Assembly: GCF_900141765.1 (NCBI RefSeq) | Contig: NZ_FSRK01000001.1 | Coordinates: 2,418,001 to 2,482,000 of the forward strand | Direction: 5' to 3' | Length of the DNA stretch: 64,000 bases | Source of the DNA: Epilithonimonas zeae | Lineage (GTDB): Bacteria > Bacteroidota > Bacteroidia > Flavobacteriales > Weeksellaceae | In this document: piece by piece, positions 36,928 to 47,753 of the stretch | Position numbering within the stretch: the stretch's first letter is position 1 | Layout: each line of letters opens with the position of its first letter | Translations under genes and position numbers: made by a program | The notes under the pieces: model-generated | The model's input: only the letters and a program-made list of their open reading frames with translations | What the model was told of the DNA's origin: nothing | The model's database searches: none

Positions 36928-38457
36928 TTAATCCTTAACAAACTTGATGGTTTCTGCACCTTTTTCGGTAAAGATTTGAATAAGGTAAGTTCCTTTAACC
37001 AAAGATTGAACATCTACAATCTTACTACCATTCAAAGATTTTTCCAATAGTTTTCTTCCTGAATAATCGGAAATAATAACTTTATCCATTTTGCTTTCCG
37101 AAGCTAGATTCAAAACATCTTTTACCGGATTGGGATATAGTGTGATCTGAGAATTCTTATTAATGTCAGAAACGTTCAAGGTTTCATTATAAGCATTAAT
37201 TGCTAAAGCGATCTTGGATTCGCAACCATCGACAGTTTGTGTAGCGTAGTAAGTTGAATTGTTGCTGATTAATGTTGTACCAGGCAGTACGTTGGTATGA
37301 GCTATAGCATTGGCTTCTGTCGCATACCATTTGATACCTTGACCTATTACAGTAAACTTTGATAACGTTTCTCCATTGTTGAAGCTAAGTCTGATAGCCG
37401 GAGCAGATGGCAATTGTCCATTAATTTCAAAATTACGTGTAATAATACATCCTTTGGCATCTGTTATTGTAACACTATAATTCCCTGAAGCCAGATTGGA
37501 AACAGAACTAGTAATTGCTCCATTAGACCATAGATAAGTATAAGGAGATGTTCCACCACTTGGAGTTACCGAAGCTGTACCATTATTACTTCCACAACTT
37601 GCAGGTGAGGAACTTGTAGTTGCAGCCAAAACAGTAGGCTCCGTAATGGTAAAACTTTGAGTTTTTGTCGCATTAGCAGCATCTTTTACTGTGACAGTGT
37701 AATTTCCCGCAGCAAGTCCGCTAGCCGTAACATTAGTACCTCCACTTGGAGACCAGCTATAGGTGTAAGGTGCTGTTCCCCCAGAAACATTGACAGTAGC
37801 ACTACCATTGGATCCACCATTACAGCTAACATTTGTCTGCGCTCCGGCACTTACAGTAAGGGCATTAGGATCAATTACAATACCCGAATCCTTAACCCAA
37901 GTGAAGGCGTCTAAACCCGCATATCTAAAAGCTCCACCCAAAGTAATCTGAAGCTGATCTATGATGATATTAGAATAGTTCTGACCATTCAGATTTGTCA
38001 AATCAATTAAGGTATAACCATTTGAGCTTCCAAAAGAAGTAGCAAAACCATTCGTTTTGGTCTGAGTAAATTTGGTAATTCCAGATAATTTACCAGTAAT
38101 AGTAAGGGTTCCGGCAACATTTAAATCAAGATTTAATGCAGATAAAAACATCCAAAATCTATTAACTTTGAATAAATTAGATGTTGTTTTAATGCTAAAA
38201 GAAGCTGGACTATCTGTCGTGTATGAGTTATCAATGTATCTATTATCATTTGCTGTTCCGTTCCAGCCTGTTCCAGGAAAATTACCCTGTACTTGGAACG
38301 TACCTATGTGGGAAATAATATTGAAAATCACACCATTGTCCGTAAAAGAACTGCTTGCGTGCGATTCGGTTTCAAAATGTTCTGTACTTGTTTGTGCATC
38401 AAAAGCATTGGAAAAGATTAATAAAACCATTACCAACAAAGAATTGATTTTTTTCAT
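36928..38457 (-). CDS. T9SS cargo protein with SprB repeats
   Basis: A 509-residue secreted protein: signal peptide (cleavage near FDAQ), an N-terminal beta-rich region (about 20-190), two SprB-type repeats at about 205-345 (VSCNGGSNGSATVNVSGG and ...SCGSNNGTASVTPSGG, each followed by YTYLWS/YTYSWS and a GNY-V-T-x-D-A end), and a type A sorting domain at the C-terminus (ITLYPNPVKDVLNL ... ETIKFVKD). The sorting domain directs export through the type IX system and anchoring at the cell surface. SprB repeats occur in gliding adhesins. It probably binds surfaces or polysaccharide; no enzyme signature is seen. Confidence 0.87.
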   Translation of the reverse strand: MKKINSLLVMVLLIFSNAFDAQTSTEHFETESHASSSFTDNGVIFNIISHIGTFQVQGNFPGTGWNGTANDNRYIDNSYTTDSPASFSIKTTSNLFKVNRFWMFLSALNLDLNVAGTLTITGKLSGITKFTQTKTNGFATSFGSSNGYTLIDLTNLNGQNYSNIIIDQLQITLGGAFRYAGLDAFTWVKDSGIVIDPNALTVSAGAQTNVSCNGGSNGSATVNVSGGTAPYTYSWSPSGGTNVTASGLAAGNYTVTVKDAANATKTQSFTITEPTVLAATTSSSPASCGSNNGTASVTPSGGTSPYTYLWSNGAITSSVSNLASGNYSVTITDAKGCIITRNFEINGQLPSAPAIRLSFNNGETLSKFTVIGQGIKWYATEANAIAHTNVLPGTTLISNNSTYYATQTVDGCESKIALAINAYNETLNVSDINKNSQITLYPNPVKDVLNLASESKMDKVIISDYSGRKLLEKSLNGSKIVDVQSLVKGTYLIQIFTEKGAETIKFVKD

Positions 38458-38618: not shown

Positions 38619-40301
38619 TTATTCTTTAATGAATTTGAAACTCTCAATATCTTTAGCAGTATAAATTTGAATTAGATAAATCCCCTTTGATAATGACTTC
38701 AGATCTACATTCATTTCGCCAGTCATATTTTTTGATATTATTTTTTTCCCTTCCAGTGATATAATTTCCACTTTCAATATTTTTTCCTGAGTTTTCAAGT
38801 TCAGAATGTCCTTTACAGGATTTGGGTAGATAGTGATACTTTTACCTTCATTAATATCCGAAATTGATAAAGTCGGCTGCAATTCAAAAGCGCCAATATC
38901 AATCGTTGTTTCTTCGATTCTGCTTTTATCTGAAAGGTCGTAATTACCATATTTTGAAGCATCGTAGAAAGAATTATTTCCATGGTTAATTCCGCTGCTA
39001 GAAGTTTGCAATGTGAAATCTTTTCCGGCAATATCTTTGAACAAAGGATCAGTTGTATAATTATTAGAACCGTTCAAAGTCACATTATACTTTGGGAGAA
39101 TAATTGAATTGTTCGCTGTTACAGTTGCCCCAGCACCATCAATTGTATTGACAGAATTGCCACCCATCCAAAAAATAGAGTTTTGTATCAAATTAAGAAT
39201 TGGATTTACAGTTGCCAGAATTGTCCCGCCATCTGGATTATAGACCGTGGAATTAATAAAACTGAGGGAAGAAGCATTATTATAAAAAGGAATATAAATC
39301 TGATCTGAATAAACGAGACTATTAACCAAAGTAACACTGGAGCCATTTCTCACCGCAATTGCTGTTCCTTTATAGGCTCCGGCATATTGGGTAAAAGGCC
39401 CTATTTTATTATTTATAAACTTACTTTTATTGATTAAAATATTATTATTACCATAAGCAAAAATGGCCGCCCCAAGTCCACCATTTGCTCCGCCTTGAGA
39501 ACCATTGTCTACAACATTTTCTTCAAAACGACAGCCTTTGATCTCAATATTTTGGTCCGTTCCATAATGATTAAAAACATCGAGCGCTCCACCTGCATAT
39601 TTTGCGTAATTGCTATAGAAAGAACAGTTCTCTACTCGCGTGACATTAGCTCCTGACGTATTAGCTTCGATTGCCAAAGCTCCTAACTGAAACTGCGAGT
39701 TATTCTTAAATATATTATTGGATATCAACGGAGAATTATTCGCAATCGAAGGATAAACCAGAATTGCGCTTCCTGTATATCTTGGAAAATAATTATTCAA
39801 AACAGATCCGGCGCTTGCATTTCCATCCTGAAAAATAAAACCATCTATCTGTGTAGAATTGTCAATCGCTGAATCATACGCATCGATAATCATGATATGA
39901 TAACTGTTATCAGAAGCAGATCCTACAGTTCCAATATCACCACTAAGAATCGTCTCGTTAGCAACAATATCTCTCTGTGACAAAGCAGTTTCTGTTCCTA
40001 TAAAACCGCCGTAAATCTTCAAATCATTTCGGGTAATGTAAAAAAACTCATCTCTGTTGGAAGTAATAGAAGGATAATAAGTTCCCTTGGCAACCCAGAT
40101 TTCTTTGATTGCTGGATTAGAGTTGGCAGCCGTAACGACCTGTTTCAAATTTTTAGAAGCATTGGACCACGAAGAACCCGTTTCTGCACCATCAATTACA
40201 GCCGCATTGACATAAACAATACCGTTAAGACTTGGTGAAATCTGCGCACCAACACAAGCAGGAATCAACAAACAAGAAAGAAAGAATAGAAATGTTTTCA
40301 T
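38619..40301 (-). CDS. T9SS cargo protein with right-handed beta-helix
   Basis: A 560-residue protein with signal peptide (cleavage near VGAQ). Residues about 25-460 have right-handed parallel beta-helix character: WVAKGTYYPSI-type opening as in polymorphic outer-membrane repeats, many I-x-N-x-x-F-x-N-N rungs, and an IDIGAFELQ end. A type A sorting domain follows (ITIYPNPVKDILNL ... ESFKFIKE). Beta-helices of this type are often polysaccharide-binding or lyase-like; no catalytic set is obvious. A candidate LytTR operator is 90 bp upstream (40391-40423). Confidence 0.85.
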   Translation of the reverse strand: MKTFLFFLSCLLIPACVGAQISPSLNGIVYVNAAVIDGAETGSSWSNASKNLKQVVTAANSNPAIKEIWVAKGTYYPSITSNRDEFFYITRNDLKIYGGFIGTETALSQRDIVANETILSGDIGTVGSASDNSYHIMIIDAYDSAIDNSTQIDGFIFQDGNASAGSVLNNYFPRYTGSAILVYPSIANNSPLISNNIFKNNSQFQLGALAIEANTSGANVTRVENCSFYSNYAKYAGGALDVFNHYGTDQNIEIKGCRFEENVVDNGSQGGANGGLGAAIFAYGNNNILINKSKFINNKIGPFTQYAGAYKGTAIAVRNGSSVTLVNSLVYSDQIYIPFYNNASSLSFINSTVYNPDGGTILATVNPILNLIQNSIFWMGGNSVNTIDGAGATVTANNSIILPKYNVTLNGSNNYTTDPLFKDIAGKDFTLQTSSSGINHGNNSFYDASKYGNYDLSDKSRIEETTIDIGAFELQPTLSISDINEGKSITIYPNPVKDILNLKTQEKILKVEIISLEGKKIISKNMTGEMNVDLKSLSKGIYLIQIYTAKDIESFKFIKE

Positions 40302-40390
40302 AATTTCAGTTTTAATAGATTAGAATTGAATGACGATGATTTAGCATTCATCCATTAAAATTAGAAATGATGAAATTTTTATCTTAAAAA

Positions 40391-40423
40391 ATGTTCTGAA
40401 ACTATGCTTTTTTGTTCTAAAAT
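40391..40423 (-). promoter_or_regulatory. Candidate LytTR operator, site 1
   Basis: Direct half-sites TGTTCTGAAA and TGTTCTAAAA (plus-strand reading) begin at 40392 and 40413, exactly 21 bp apart. The site is identical at 28 of 33 positions to 42861-42893, with all differences in the spacer. It is upstream of the T9SS gene at 38619-40301; a TAnnTTTA -7-like element at 40356-40363 has the same spacing as at site 2. Confidence 0.65.
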
Positions 40424-40427
40424 GAAA

Positions 40428-41078
40428 TTAGAAATGTTTGGAAATCTTGAAAACCTTATCTTCCAAATGCAATTTATCATTCACGATTTTTGAAATATGA
40501 TATGGATTAACGGCTACGCTTCGGTTAATCCGTTTAAAATATTTAGAAGGGAAAACCTCTTCCAGATAGGACATCGTTGTTCTTAGAATTTGATTTTTAC
40601 CGGACTTCAAATAGATTTCGACATAGATATGGTCAGCTTCTGCAAAAAGAAAATCTTTGGATTGGAAATAATAGACCTGTTTGCCAATCTCAATCTTGAA
40701 GATATTATCCTGATTGGCCAATGCAAGATTAATCGCTGTGATCAAATTCACACTTTCAACAGGTTTTGAAAGGTAGGCAGAAGGTTTCAGATTAGTCACT
40801 TTTTCGAGTGTACTTGGATCGGTCAAAGCGGTTGTAAAAATGAATGGAATCGAAATATTATTATTGATGAATTGCGCCAAATCCAATCCCGTCTTCTCTC
40901 CGGAAAGCGAAATATCAATCAAAACCAAATCAAATAATTTGTGAGACAACAACAGTTTTGCTTCTTCATAATCGTGGGCAATCTCGGACAAGAAAAACGG
41001 CTCCAGCATTCTTTTGACAGAGAACGAAATCAAGACCTCATCTTCTACAATCAGTATTCTGTTTTTATGCTCAGTCAT
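40428..41078 (-). CDS. LytTR-family response regulator
   Basis: The start is ATG 41076-41078 (MTEHKNRILIVEDEV), which overlaps the end of the kinase gene by 8 nt; an upstream ATG at 41105 lies deeper in the kinase gene. The 216-residue protein has a receiver domain (acidic pocket Glu12/Asp13, phosphoacceptor Asp55 in LVLIDISLSG, Lys in YLSKPVESV) and a C-terminal LytTR DNA-binding domain at about 120-216 (FAEADHIYVEIYLKSGKNQILRTTMSYLEEVFP...FKRINRSVAVN). LytTR proteins bind pairs of short direct repeats about two helical turns apart, which matches the two sites nearby. Confidence 0.92.
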   Translation of the reverse strand: MTEHKNRILIVEDEVLISFSVKRMLEPFFLSEIAHDYEEAKLLLSHKLFDLVLIDISLSGEKTGLDLAQFINNNISIPFIFTTALTDPSTLEKVTNLKPSAYLSKPVESVNLITAINLALANQDNIFKIEIGKQVYYFQSKDFLFAEADHIYVEIYLKSGKNQILRTTMSYLEEVFPSKYFKRINRSVAVNPYHISKIVNDKLHLEDKVFKISKHF

Positions 41079-42759
41079 TGAGAAATGTGATTTTGTAATT
41101 AGCATTATCTCTTATGTAATTCCCTTTCAGCTGCTTTACCATTCCTTCGATAATCAAAAGTCCGAGCGAATCTTTCTTATTTTCAAAATCGAAATCGGTT
41201 CCGTTATCCGAATATGACAATTCTATCTTATCATCAATCAAATTTAATTTTAAATTTAATATTAACGACTCTGTTTTTGCGTGCTTTATAGAATTAGTAA
41301 TCAATTCATTAAGAATCAAACCAAATGGTAATGCTTTGTCTACTTTCAGAGTGATATTTTCGATATCAATTTTATAATCAATAACTCTTTGTGAACTGTT
41401 TTGATGCGTTTCGAAAATCCTGTTCGTATAACTTTCGACCTCGATAAGTGCATTATCATTATGATTCACACTGTAAGAATACAGTTCGTGCGCAATCATT
41501 ATCGTTTTTATCCGTTGACGCAAGTCTTCGAATCTGTTTTTATACTCAGAACTATCAGCTTGGTCTTTCTGAAAATCTATCAGACTGAGAATCACAGCCA
41601 GATTATTTTTGACACGATGATTAAGTTCCTGAACCAAGAATTGTTTTTGCTCAAGATTGTTTTTCAAAGCAAGATTATTATCGGAAATTTCTTGTTTTTG
41701 AACTTCTATTTTCTTTTTATTTTTAAGAATCAACCAAAGTAAAAACGCTAAAACGAAAACAGAAATAAATAATGTGATATTAAGCTTTCGAGTGCCTGCA
41801 ATGTTCTTTTGTAGTTGTTCTTTCTCTGTTTTTTCCTTCTGAAAATTAAATTGAATTCCCAGTTCTTTAACTTTAAGATCTCTTTGCTGATTACGGAACT
41901 GATTGTACAAGTCTGAAGCAAGTTTATAGTAATGTAAAGCGGAATCAGATTGATTTTGCTTTTCCATAATTTCACTTTTCAATTGAAAAATATCCGCTCT
42001 GTAATTTAAAACTCTTGAATTTTTGGAATTAGCAATTGCAGAATCTATGTAAACATCAGCCATTTTATAATCCCGCTTTGAGAAATATAAAAACGAAATA
42101 TTATTATACATAGAATTAATCGCCTCGTTGTGATGAAGTCTTTTGTACAAATAAAGTGCACGCTGAAAATGTGCTAATCTTTTCTCAGGATTGTTCCGAT
42201 TTCCCAACCCGAGAATCAGTTCTACATCAGGAAGATTTGATTCATCATTGACTGATATCGCATATTTTTTAGCCTCGTTAGCTATTTCAAATGCAATTTC
42301 CCGATGACCATTCACCCTGTAATAAGATGATTTCCTGATAAGAAAATGAGTATAATTTTTAGGTTTAAGTTCGGGATGATTTTTGATTATCTGTTCCGCT
42401 TTATCAATTTCGATTTTGGAGGCTTTTTCATCATTATTAATTTCAAAAATCAATTCTCTTTCGATATGGATTTTGAGTTGCTGTTCAGGCGTTAATTTAT
42501 AATTAATGAGATTTTGAGACAGTTTGAAAGCTTCATCATAGAGTCCCAATTCTGTTAGAATTTTCACTTTTAAAACGTCCAAATTTACTTTTTCAGAATC
42601 TTTAAAACGTTCTCTATTTTGATTAATCAATTCTAAAGCAGTTGAATAATCTGAATTCTTAATCTTATTATCAAGACTTCTTTCCAATGACTGAATAGAT
42701 TCTTGCCCGAAACAAAAAACAATCAGAAAAAAAAGAAAAAAGCCAAAATAGATTCTCAC
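41071..42759 (-). CDS. TPR-containing sensor histidine kinase
   Basis: A 562-residue protein: signal peptide, tetratricopeptide-like helical repeats over about residues 25-310, one transmembrane segment near 327-346 (LNITLFISVFVLAFLLWLIL), a short coiled coil, and a HisKA_2 dimerisation domain with the phosphoacceptor His381 in ELNHRVKNNLAVILSL. The ATPase domain follows with LNELITNSIKHAK and SYSDNGTDFDF. The sensor part faces the periplasm. It forms a translationally coupled two-component system with the LytTR regulator and has its own promoter at 42826-42833 with an operator-like site upstream. Confidence 0.9.
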   Translation of the reverse strand: MRIYFGFFLFFLIVFCFGQESIQSLERSLDNKIKNSDYSTALELINQNRERFKDSEKVNLDVLKVKILTELGLYDEAFKLSQNLINYKLTPEQQLKIHIERELIFEINNDEKASKIEIDKAEQIIKNHPELKPKNYTHFLIRKSSYYRVNGHREIAFEIANEAKKYAISVNDESNLPDVELILGLGNRNNPEKRLAHFQRALYLYKRLHHNEAINSMYNNISFLYFSKRDYKMADVYIDSAIANSKNSRVLNYRADIFQLKSEIMEKQNQSDSALHYYKLASDLYNQFRNQQRDLKVKELGIQFNFQKEKTEKEQLQKNIAGTRKLNITLFISVFVLAFLLWLILKNKKKIEVQKQEISDNNLALKNNLEQKQFLVQELNHRVKNNLAVILSLIDFQKDQADSSEYKNRFEDLRQRIKTIMIAHELYSYSVNHNDNALIEVESYTNRIFETHQNSSQRVIDYKIDIENITLKVDKALPFGLILNELITNSIKHAKTESLILNLKLNLIDDKIELSYSDNGTDFDFENKKDSLGLLIIEGMVKQLKGNYIRDNANYKITFLND

Positions 42760-42825
42760 AGCCTAACAAAGATAAACAAATGCAGTCTCTATTTTTTATA
42801 TTGCCAACTACATTTTGTAAGGATT

Positions 42826-42833
42826 CAAATTTA
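42826..42833 (-). promoter_or_regulatory. -7 element of the two-component operon
   Basis: On the minus strand TAAATTTG matches TAnnTTTG, 66 bases before the kinase start. The candidate operator 42861-42893 lies 27 bp further upstream, just behind the -33 position. Confidence 0.6.
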
Positions 42834-42860
42834 TAATCTTCCGTGACCTATTCATTAAAA

Positions 42861-42893
42861 ATGTTCTGAAAGTAATGGTTTTTGTTCTAAAAT
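42861..42893 (-). promoter_or_regulatory. Candidate LytTR operator, site 2
   Basis: Half-sites TGTTCTGAAA and TGTTCTAAAA (plus-strand reading) begin at 42862 and 42883, 21 bp apart, as at 40391-40423. The site is in the gap between the kinase gene and the divergent T9SS gene at 43058, so it could govern both. Confidence 0.65.
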
Positions 42894-43057: not shown

Positions 43058-44830
43058 ATGAAAAAAATTCTACTATTATTAACTGTAAGCGTTGCAGTTT
43101 CAAATTTGTATGCACAAGTTGACATTACCGCATCATCTGGTACAGCAACCGGAACCTACACGACATTGAAAGGAGCTTTTGACGCCATTAATACAGGAAC
43201 ACACCAAGGTGCTATCACCATTAGCATAACCGGAAATACAACCGAAACTGCTACAGCAATTCTAAATGCGAGCTCAGGCACTTCCAGTTACACATCGGTT
43301 CTTATCCAACCTGCAACAGGAGTTAACGCAACAATTACCAGCGCAAGTACTGTTGCAACTATCAAATTCAATGGTGCCGATAACGTAACAATTAACGGAA
43401 GCAATAATGGAAGCTCTTCAAGAAATTTGACTATTAGTAACACTTTTGTAGCAACAACAGGCACTACACCTGTCGTGCTTTGGGTTTCCAGCACTGCGAC
43501 GGATGGGTCAGAAAACATAACGCTTAGAAATACAAATTTTGCTGGATCCTCAGGAACAGGAACTATTGGTGGCGTTATTGTTTCAGGAACGACTCTAGGA
43601 GCTGCCGAAGTACCCAACAATAACTTCTCAGCCATCAACAACACTTTTATAAGAGCTCAAAATGGTATCTTTTTGGTTGGAAATGCAACAAATACCGACA
43701 CTGGGTGGATCGTAAGAAACAACGAAATAGGATCTACGGTTACTGCAGACAAAATGCTATTTAGAGGTATCGCAGTACAAAACGCCAAAAACTTTGAGGT
43801 AAGCGGAAACGTAATAAAAGGAGTAGCTCTTCCTGCAACTTCCACAAATACAACACAAGGTATTCTAGTTGGCGCCGCAGTAACTAACGGAAGTATTTTC
43901 AACAACAGAATTTCGGATATCAAACAACCCAACACTGCCGGATACGGCGCTGTAGGTCTTTATATCAATTCAGGCTCAGCTACATCTAATTTATTAATTT
44001 ACAACAATGTTATTAATGATATTGCAGGCACCGGATATTCAGCAGGCGGCGGATTAGCTGATAACGGCAACGGTATAGTAATTGGCAACGGCGCCGGTTT
44101 CAAGATTTACTACAATACGGTAGTTATGGACACCAACCAAACGAACGCAGGAAGACCTTCCGCATTTAACGTATTAAGCACAGTTACTGCAGCTGGAGCA
44201 ATAGATCTTCGAAATAATATTTTTGTAAATAAACAAACACAGACAGGAGAAAAGTACACGATCTATTCCGGTGCGGCTAATACCGTTTTTTCAAATATCG
44301 ACTATAATGACTACTACTCTTCAGGAGCTAATCTTGGATATATCGGTTCTGCTAGAGCCACTTTAGCTAATTTACAAACAGGCTTTGGAGGCAATGTGAA
44401 TTCAATCAATGTATTACCAGCATTTGTGTCTGCAACAGATTTAACCCCAGCAACAACAGGAAATGCTACCTTAGATAACAAAGGAACACCTGTAGCAGAC
44501 GTCACTCTAGATATGAACGGCAATACAAGAAGCGCTACAACACCAGATTTAGGCGGATACGAATTTACCGACACTACTTTAGCTGTTCAGGATGTTAATA
44601 AATCTAAAATTAATTACTATCCTAACCCAGTCGTTGACCAATTACAAATTAGCAATGACAAAAAGATTAATACTGTAGAAATTTACAATGCTTCTGGATC
44701 AGCAATTAGAAATGTTATTATCAATTCTGAAAAAGGATTTATTGATATGAGACAATTACCTGTTGGAGTTTATATTTTGAAAATTAATTCCGATAAGCAA
44801 TCAGAAACAATTAAAGTTATTAAAAACTAA
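43058..44830 (+). CDS. T9SS cargo protein with beta-helix
   Basis: A 590-residue secreted protein with signal peptide (cleavage after NLYAQ). A long Thr/Asn/Gly-rich beta-helix spans about residues 25-500 with repeated N-x-T-I-x-G and NN-x-I-x-x-rungs (FNGADNVTINGSNNG). It ends with a type A sorting domain (INYYPNPVVDQLQI ... SETIKVIKN). It shares architecture with the cargo at 38619 but not close sequence identity. The codons are richer in GCA/ACA than the neighbours, reflecting the amino acid bias. It is divergent from the two-component operon and followed by a terminator. Confidence 0.85.
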   Translation: MKKILLLLTVSVAVSNLYAQVDITASSGTATGTYTTLKGAFDAINTGTHQGAITISITGNTTETATAILNASSGTSSYTSVLIQPATGVNATITSASTVATIKFNGADNVTINGSNNGSSSRNLTISNTFVATTGTTPVVLWVSSTATDGSENITLRNTNFAGSSGTGTIGGVIVSGTTLGAAEVPNNNFSAINNTFIRAQNGIFLVGNATNTDTGWIVRNNEIGSTVTADKMLFRGIAVQNAKNFEVSGNVIKGVALPATSTNTTQGILVGAAVTNGSIFNNRISDIKQPNTAGYGAVGLYINSGSATSNLLIYNNVINDIAGTGYSAGGGLADNGNGIVIGNGAGFKIYYNTVVMDTNQTNAGRPSAFNVLSTVTAAGAIDLRNNIFVNKQTQTGEKYTIYSGAANTVFSNIDYNDYYSSGANLGYIGSARATLANLQTGFGGNVNSINVLPAFVSATDLTPATTGNATLDNKGTPVADVTLDMNGNTRSATTPDLGGYEFTDTTLAVQDVNKSKINYYPNPVVDQLQISNDKKINTVEIYNASGSAIRNVIINSEKGFIDMRQLPVGVYILKINSDKQSETIKVIKN

Positions 44831-46100: not shown

Positions 46101-47753
46101 TTAATTGTACACCAAAACTTCATCTTCTTTCAGACTCTGGATAAAATAAGACGGCGTAACACCATTGATCTTTTTAAAAGCCAAAACAAACACCTGAGGT
46201 GAGGCATAACCACATTCCTCAGCGAGATAACTGATTTTGCACTCTCTATATTTCGGCTCATTATATAACTTATGGACGATATAATTAATTCTTAGATTAT
46301 TGATATAATTGCTAAAATTCTGGGACTTGTTATTTTTGATAATTTCTGCCAGATATTTGGAATTGGTATTAAGATGAGTTGCCAAGTGACTGACTGTAAA
46401 ATCTTTTCTAAGAAATTTGTCAGATTTTTCGAAAGCTGATAGCCTTCTGAGAATTCGAGCTTCTGTTTCGGCGGAGATCAAGTTTTTGTTAGAAACTTCA
46501 AAATCATCAGTAAAATCTGGTTCAATTTGAGTATTATCTTCAGTTTCGTGAATGGCATTGGTTGAATTTTCAGTTTGAACCGATTCAACCTTAAGCCTAT
46601 CTATCATCGCCTCATAATTCTTGCGCAGTATCCTGTTATTTCTACGAACCAAGACCCAAGACCCAAACGCTATAATTACAATCACAATCCCGCCATAGAA
46701 CAAAAGCGTCTTTTTTGATTGCTCATTTTTGACATTGGCTTTTTTAATTTCATCTCTGGACTGATGAACAATTGCTCTTTTCTCCACAAAGTTGATACTG
46801 TCATTAAGCGCAGTGTACAACTTCATATACTTGTTTTCTTCTGCGGTATTTTTGAGAAAGCCGTACGCATTCTTCATATTGTTAAAAGCAAACAATCGAT
46901 TCCTCGGTTCACTTTTAGTCTTTTCAATTTCGAGTAACTTTTGAGAATAATCTATACTCTTTTGATAGTCGCCTTTTTCCAGATAAAAACCGCTAATTGC
47001 ATAATAAACATCGTTTTCGCAGATCTTAAAGTATTTTGGAGCAGTTGTCTGGAACTCTAAGGTTTTTACAAAATATTTTTCTGCTATATTAAAATCCGGA
47101 GGCTTCTGCCCATAGACATAATAACTGCCCATATTCATCAGTTCAAAAATATAGAGATAATAGTATTTTGATTTCTGATATTCCGTAAGATTATTGGTAG
47201 GTGTAGTTTCTATAGCATTAAGGCTCTTTTTGGTTGAAACATACCAATTCTTGGGATCATTTTCTCCCTCGTACATTCCTGCAAAATTTGCATAAATACG
47301 GCAAAGCTGAATATGTCTATCTGCAGGGTTTTCTATTTTCTCAGCATACCCAAGGGATTTGTTTAGAATTATTTCTGCTTCGGGTAATTTATCTAAAATA
47401 ATATTGATTTTTCCTCGGTACAAATAGATTGCACTAAGAGCAGAGTTATTTTTCAGTTTTTCAGCCAACACTTCTGCCTCGTCACTGTATTTTCCGGACA
47501 GGATGTAATCATTTTTCATCAAGGCAATCTTTTGCAACATCGTCAAACCTCTCAAAACACCTTGTTGAAAGTCTATTTTCTTGGATTGATCAGCCAGTTT
47601 TTTAACCTTATCCATACTGGCAATCTCTTTATCATCAATCTCAATCCTATCATAACTATTGATGATGTTTCTTTGAGTTTCCTTTCTGATTTGAGAATAA
47701 GAAACCGTATAAAAAGAAAAAAGAATAAGCATTAAGTAGAGCGACTTTTTCAT
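46101..47753 (-). CDS. Membrane-bound TPR protein with AraC-type DNA-binding domain
   Basis: A 550-residue one-component regulator: signal/anchor region, tetratricopeptide-like repeats over about 40-330, a transmembrane helix near 343-363 (TLLFYGGIVIVIIAFGSWVLV), and a C-terminal AraC/XylS helix-turn-helix pair (FTVSHLATHLNTNSKYLAEIIK near 455-476 and ISYLAEECGYASPQVFVLAFKKINGVTPSYF near 505-535). Such regulators sense a periplasmic condition through the TPR part and act on DNA from the membrane. Target genes are unknown. Confidence 0.88.
   Translation of the reverse strand: MKKSLYLMLILFSFYTVSYSQIRKETQRNIINSYDRIEIDDKEIASMDKVKKLADQSKKIDFQQGVLRGLTMLQKIALMKNDYILSGKYSDEAEVLAEKLKNNSALSAIYLYRGKINIILDKLPEAEIILNKSLGYAEKIENPADRHIQLCRIYANFAGMYEGENDPKNWYVSTKKSLNAIETTPTNNLTEYQKSKYYYLYIFELMNMGSYYVYGQKPPDFNIAEKYFVKTLEFQTTAPKYFKICENDVYYAISGFYLEKGDYQKSIDYSQKLLEIEKTKSEPRNRLFAFNNMKNAYGFLKNTAEENKYMKLYTALNDSINFVEKRAIVHQSRDEIKKANVKNEQSKKTLLFYGGIVIVIIAFGSWVLVRRNNRILRKNYEAMIDRLKVESVQTENSTNAIHETEDNTQIEPDFTDDFEVSNKNLISAETEARILRRLSAFEKSDKFLRKDFTVSHLATHLNTNSKYLAEIIKNNKSQNFSNYINNLRINYIVHKLYNEPKYRECKISYLAEECGYASPQVFVLAFKKINGVTPSYFIQSLKEDEVLVYN

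Follow-up and report, generated by a model that had tools for sequence, protein, structure and literature searches.

The window, a stretch of 64,000 nucleotides of the Epilithonimonas zeae genome, carries on its minus strand, in this order, an operator (operator 2), a sensor kinase gene, a response regulator gene, a further operator (operator 1) and a gene for a T9SS cargo protein. The kinase gene (41071..42759, minus strand, listed with a GTG start) codes for a TPR/HisKA_2 protein; Pfam gave HisKA_2 with 53.4 bits and a TPR_12 match under the Pfam cut-off. The regulator gene (40428..41105, minus strand) is listed with 225 amino acids, and its orthologues start at an ATG equivalent to position 41078, which would give 216 amino acids. 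Response_reg (50.5 bits, cut-off 30.2) and LytTR (37.3 bits, cut-off 22.6) identify its product as a LytTR response regulator; the genome holds 14 LytTR domains. Pfam thus confirmed the LytTR regulator and the TPR kinase, the latter with its TPR part sub-threshold, that a preliminary description of this DNA had named as neighbours of the two sites. The predicted target gene (38619..40301, minus strand) encodes T9SS cargo with a Por_Secre_tail domain (46.6 bits, cut-off 27). It had been described as T9SS beta-helix cargo, of which the T9SS part stands; Pfam returned the sorting domain alone, and the beta-helix remains a reading of the preliminary description. A gene for SprB-repeat T9SS cargo (36928..38457, minus strand) follows in the same direction and is a possible second target by putative co-transcription. 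No terminator-like site was seen between the regulator gene and the T9SS gene, which means that read-through might suffice to express the cargo.

Operator 2 (42862..42892, minus strand) is located upstream of the kinase-regulator operon and operator 1 (40392..40422, minus strand) between the regulator and the T9SS gene. Both read TTTTAGAACA-N11-TTTCAGAACA, a direct repeat of 31 bp in which two 10-bp half-sites are separated by an 11-bp spacer and start 21 bp apart. The preliminary description had counted 28 identical positions of 33 between the blocks 40391-40423 and 42861-42893 and half-site starts 21 bp apart on one strand; coordinates and counts were reproduced, and all five differences fall in the spacer. 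The canonical LytTR half-site is [TA][AC][CA]GTTN[AG][TG]. Compared by eye, the half-sites do not match it (AATGTTCTG differs at 2 of 9 positions and TTTGTTCTA at 4 of 9), and because of this departure we claim only that the repeat works like a LytTR operator, with a half-site of its own. The spacing agrees with the LytTR-type definition of ~9-bp direct repeats spaced 10-13 bp (PMC11347149). A third half-site-like stretch, TTTCCAAACA, was seen 22 bp before operator 1 in the last codons of the regulator gene (40413-40444); it is kept in orthologues, possibly just as coding sequence. A second T9SS gene (43058-44830) runs divergently from the kinase gene and starts 165 bp past operator 2, which points away from it.

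Scanning the window with up to 3 mismatches returned two matches, both with 0 mismatches, compared to a mean of 0.16 in shuffled sequence; at least two matches at this threshold occurred in 2 of 100 shuffles. Within the 4.08-Mb genome, operators 1 and 2 are the only sites with 0 mismatches and the next best has 2. The random scatter that would have spoken against the motif was therefore not found: two exact sites exist in 4.08 Mb, both at the module. With up to 3 mismatches the genome gave 24 matches versus 16 for a pattern read backward, so these weak matches are mostly noise and were dismissed as targets. One of them, the site with 2 mismatches (L003), extends across the start of a different gene, shows no -7 element at 28 bp and was likewise rejected. 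Since the site set of the genome comprises these two sites only, the data point to a local circuit and not to a broad T9SS regulon.

Octamers of the form TAnnTTT(G/A), resembling a -7 element, are present on the minus strand at both positions named in the preliminary description: TAAATTTG at 42826..42833, 28 bp downstream of operator 2, and TAATTTTA at 40356..40363, 28 bp downstream of operator 1. Among 28 flavobacterial sites, comprising those of Weeksellaceae-type and Flavobacterium modules, TAnnTTT(A/G) starts 28 bp past the site in 21 and 29 bp past it in 6, while all other offsets from 10 to 59 together gave 1 match. The exception is the kinase site of L041, which has CATTTTTG at 28 bp. 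Two of the three sites in the distant loci L173 and L177 also carry a -7 element at 28 bp. As orthologous sites share descent, independent evidence comes from comparing operator 1 with operator 2 and, in addition, from L041, L173 and L177. For 43 Saprospiraceae sites, a set that excludes the fourth operator of L205 (score 16), a strict -7 element was found at 38-39 bp in 10 and at other, scattered offsets in 6. The position at 38-39 bp is one helical turn further. Three rows are not part of these operator statistics: L059 shares its contig with L040, L179 is a near copy of L060, and G770 is the genome of L061.

Conservation together with the regulator was assessed in 23 genomes of the genus, 9 of which (own included) have a regulator match at E <=1e-20: our own, four close orthologues (86-96%), one at 42% and three near 32%. 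The four close orthologues have both operators in the same places, with 0-1 mismatch in the site after the regulator and 2 in the site before the kinase. Both operators are also found with the 42% homologue (G020, L041), there with 20-bp instead of 21-bp spacing, so the sites are conserved with the system in these five relatives; beside the regulators of the three ~32% homologues no operator was found. The position of operator 2 is matched in L037-L041, L060, L174, L176, L179 and L286-L290. The gene upstream of the kinase varies, being a divergent T9SS gene in the window, a co-directional SprB-type gene in L037 and L038 and directly a HipA-like gene in L039, which argues that operator 2 serves the kinase. 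Allowing up to 1 mismatch, the genus yielded 9 sites in 8 of 23 genomes, none of them a further site in our own genome, and the reversed pattern yielded 0. Three of these sites (G006, G009, G020) are not at a regulator. In L031 and L035 (G006 and G020), an operator-like repeat with 1 mismatch lies at ~1501-1531, upstream of a HipA-like gene and facing away from it; by eye, a -7-like element is located at 22 and not 28 bp. G006 has no regulator and G020 has one elsewhere, and the repeat might be what remains of a lost module.

Across the family, 6 of 320 genomes contain the regulator at E 1e-35. The exact pattern TTYAGAACA-N12-TTYAGAACA occurs in 8 of 395 Bacteroidota genomes and its reverse in 0 of 395. 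In a search with the regulator profile, run on equally many genomes drawn in the same way and with only 7 candidates scored per genome, these eight rank first with E values of 2e-41 or better; the next genome follows at 9e-38, and 23 genomes pass E 1e-30. Operator and regulator thus pick the same eight of 395 genomes, which supports the earlier proposal that the repeats are operators of the LytTR system. Ten of the 13 exact sites in the eight genomes adjoin a kinase-regulator pair, 2 lie elsewhere in G512 and 1 is intragenic. Exact matches were found in 10 of 199 genomes of Flavobacterium, to which G671 belongs judging from L060, and the reversed pattern gave 0. The full order operator-kinase-regulator-operator is present in G671, G356, G909, G930, G1024, G876 and G947, as well as in Flavobacterium beibuense RSKm HC5 (L060). 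Matches in L175 (G356), L178 (Aequorivita) and L291 (G925) and one in L277 (G792) lie inside coding genes and were set aside as chance, and those in G906, G954 and G865, themselves 21-bp tandem repeats, were judged artefacts from their spacing.

Among 150 Saprospiraceae-type genomes, 37 have matches with up to 1 mismatch, in total 75 versus 19 for the reversed pattern, so the single-mismatch matches are partly noise. Most concentrated are the exact sites in G855 (7), G829, G792, G789, G844 and others. At the loci that were read, many sites adjoin a kinase or regulator gene or precede genes for lipoprotein-like or secreted proteins. The seven exact operators of G855 (L266-L272) lie on seven contigs, have a spacer consensus near TATTTCCTACCA and in several cases precede lipoprotein-like genes; judging from these positions, they are candidates for a larger regulon in Saprospiraceae. 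At homologous LytTR loci of ~30% identity (L206-L217 and others), the regulator has no such operator next to it; these loci were kept as the operator-free set.

A maximum-likelihood tree was calculated for 63 regulators, of which 29 have an operator beside them and 34 do not. Here, loci of our own genome without operator span 1.5 kb on each side, and three of its LytTR loci (L045, L055, L056) were left out because they gave no regulator match. The operator label needs 2 changes on this tree; shuffled labels need 21.1 on average, and 0 of 500 shuffles were as low as 2. The operator-bearing regulators are not strictly one clade and form one in 8% of the bootstrap trees. All 29 of them carry a His-(Val/Ile) pair in the LytTR domain, in the motif [AS][DEQ]H[VI]Y, versus 0 of 34 regulators without operator; the His by itself occurs in all 29 and in 1 of the others (L064). 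In the window, this residue is His159 in the numbering of the 225-residue protein, encoded at 40629..40631 (minus strand). In 19 of the 29 cases the DNA pattern had led to the locus in the first place, so selection for the residue played no part there, and the Fisher value of 4e-17 overstates the association because the rows of the tree are related. The regulator was modelled with a mean pLDDT of 88.3, and the predicted structure places His159 in a loop between two strands; comparison of this model with the PDB listed receiver-domain chains only and is uninformative on the LytTR part. The LytTR profile matches a chain of AgrA (E 2e-7) and of ComE (E 4.5e-6). Aligned to AgrA, the loop His precedes L171 by a few residues, with the numbering of the AgrA loop being partly our assumption. 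L171 of AgrA is proximal to DNA, and the FhRhHRS motif is typical of LytTR regulators more than strictly defining (both from PMC4227749). At the position of this motif, the window regulator has FKRINRS, Saprospiraceae relatives mostly have (C/T/V)HRS and AgrA itself has FFRCHNS.

The genes behind the second operator differ between modules. They encode T9SS or SprB-repeat proteins in the window, L037-L040, L286, L287 and L290, phospholipase C-like proteins in L060 and L174 with ricin-type lectin, in L176 and L288, and in L289 (called from a similar N-terminus only), and a class 3 lipase in L041. Pfam assigned Por_Secre_tail to 6, a PI-PLC domain to 4 and Lipase_3 to 1 of 17 downstream proteins and gave no family for 3 (L272, L274, L172). 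Genes for T9SS proteins, lectins, phospholipases and lipases thus follow the sites, answering the question of the preliminary description whether they precede T9SS or surface genes. The order operator-kinase-regulator-operator-cargo is constant while the cargo changes. With L041 aside, the regulators of the window genus nest within those of Flavobacterium (5 rows plus L288, support 99/88), which suggests, from the tree of the regulator only, that the module spread by horizontal transfer. In L041 (3188-10294, G020), a kinase-regulator-lipase-T9SS module lies between two genes that we take to be nusG and rplK.

Very probably, the 31-bp repeats are the operators of the LytTR regulator encoded between them, which would activate its own operon and the cargo gene. 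The sites, their places, the fixed distance to the -7 element and the co-inheritance with one LytTR clade are properties read from the sequences. From these we infer that the regulator is phosphorylated in response to a signal read by the TPR/HisKA_2 kinase. A pair of regulators would then bind next to each other, immediately upstream of the -33 region, with one LytTR domain per half-site, two helical turns apart on the same face. Two TAnnTTTG-type promoters would be activated, that of the own operon, resulting in positive feedback, and that of the secreted or surface cargo gene, whose product may be exported by the T9SS. The location upstream of the expected -33 region corresponds to that of published LytTR activators.

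A bound dimer might instead block the promoter until the signal relieves repression; CoxC, a LytTR protein, represses and has repeats that overlap the -35 box (PMC11347149). In our case, however, 28-29 bp separate the end of the sites from the -7 element, and the sites lie upstream of, not over, the expected -33 region, and the Saprospiraceae alternative one helical turn further upstream suits an activator. We therefore regard repression as unlikely. It is far less probable that another regulator uses the sites. A TPR-AraC protein is encoded nearby, here at 46101-47753 and likewise in L037 and L039, but at the same thresholds no match was found in L038, L040 (a short contig piece) and L041, where both operators are present, and the presence of the operator tracks the LytTR regulator both in the 395 genomes and on the tree. 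The repeats also bracket the two genes almost exactly, and the tree suggests transfer between lineages, as could be expected of a non-regulatory scar left by insertion or duplication of a kinase-regulator cassette. Against such an origin, conservation is restricted to the half-sites and the -7 distance, with divergent spacers, and copies stand alone on the separate contigs of G855 (7 exact sites) or form arrays in L063 and L205; we consider a scar hardly credible. Activation by the LytTR regulator remains the preferred reading.

The preliminary description knew of no target site for this kind of flavobacterial regulator, and our search likewise found none for a HisKA_2/LytTR pair in Bacteroidota, in a mostly open-access literature. 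PorX is not known to be a LytTR protein. The PorX-PorY-SigP system is likewise a two-component control linked to T9SS but acts on the secretion machine via a sigma factor, whereas here a cargo gene adjoins its own regulator (PMC4800418). The operators of LytTR Regulatory Systems (LRS), including predicted repeats of Bacteroides thetaiotaomicron and B. ovatus, share direct repeats ~21-22 bp apart and a TAnnTTTG promoter with our sites, and autoregulation by the LytTR protein is as proposed here. Their half-sites, in contrast, are TCCGGTATTCA/ACCGGAAATCA-like and not TTYAGAACA, and the -7 element follows after 34 bp (11+4+19) and not after 28-29 bp. The LRS partner is a membrane inhibitor with no kinase, so the HisKA_2 kinase places our system outside the LRS definition, and the second operator at a cargo gene is unlike the published LRS (PMC6193735). 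AgrA of Staphylococcus aureus, also a receiver-LytTR protein, has two direct repeats immediately upstream of its own promoter and a second target, but the neighbouring target is a secreted protein here and not RNAIII; AgrA differs in half-site and kinase class, and the diagnostic loop His is a feature of our regulators (PMC4227749). CoxC and RcoM also use direct repeats two helical turns apart, but there are three of them (TTCNNGCA/TTNNNGCN), the regulators are one-component and CoxC represses (PMC11347149). By this comparison of sequences, the element would work like a known LytTR operator, and its half-site, promoter distance, kinase class and cargo operator appear new. Bacteroidota have many LytTR regulators and, in the literature searched, few assigned targets. 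Recognition site, promoter geometry and marker residue together would make the targets of this clade readable from sequence. The module may be a switch devoted to single surface proteins, lectins and phospholipases, and it could serve as a natural series for how LytTR domains choose DNA.

A different arrangement was found in the Neolewinella branch, where short units, each headed by an operator, stand in tandem (L063:1541-4073, L205:2871-4877, L171:8052-8828). All five sites of the Neolewinella litorea genome with up to 1 mismatch (L063) lie in a row before the kinase; in G512, five sites precede the kinase (L205) and another two follow each other at a separate locus (L171). A GC hairpin followed by a T-run closes 10 of the 12 units, and the last unit before each kinase is without one. 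A strict TAnnTTT(A/G) at 38-39 bp is present in four of the five units of N. litorea and in two of the seven of G512. ATG frames, the longest of 75 codons, occur in some units; several begin upstream of the -7 element, inside the terminator or beyond it. An Rfam scan of the three array loci returned 0 matches. The units are likely noncoding and, by their layout, candidates for LytTR-driven small RNAs. Tentatively, and with considerable doubt, one might see in all this a phylum-wide DNA code of one LytTR clade, read by the His-(Val/Ile) loop and borne on cassettes with exchangeable effectors, and used in Neolewinella to drive arrays of short regulatory RNAs with GAGAGAC motifs, one of which could pair with GTCTCTC in the kinase leader and provide feedback on the sensor. 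The motif GAGAGAC, spotted by eye and post hoc, has 14 copies within the arrays (5.3 kb) and 0 in the surrounding 37 kb. It occurs in 7 of 12 units, in one of these past the terminator of the unit, and GTCTCTC is present in the kinase leader of G512 and in unit 1 of N. litorea.
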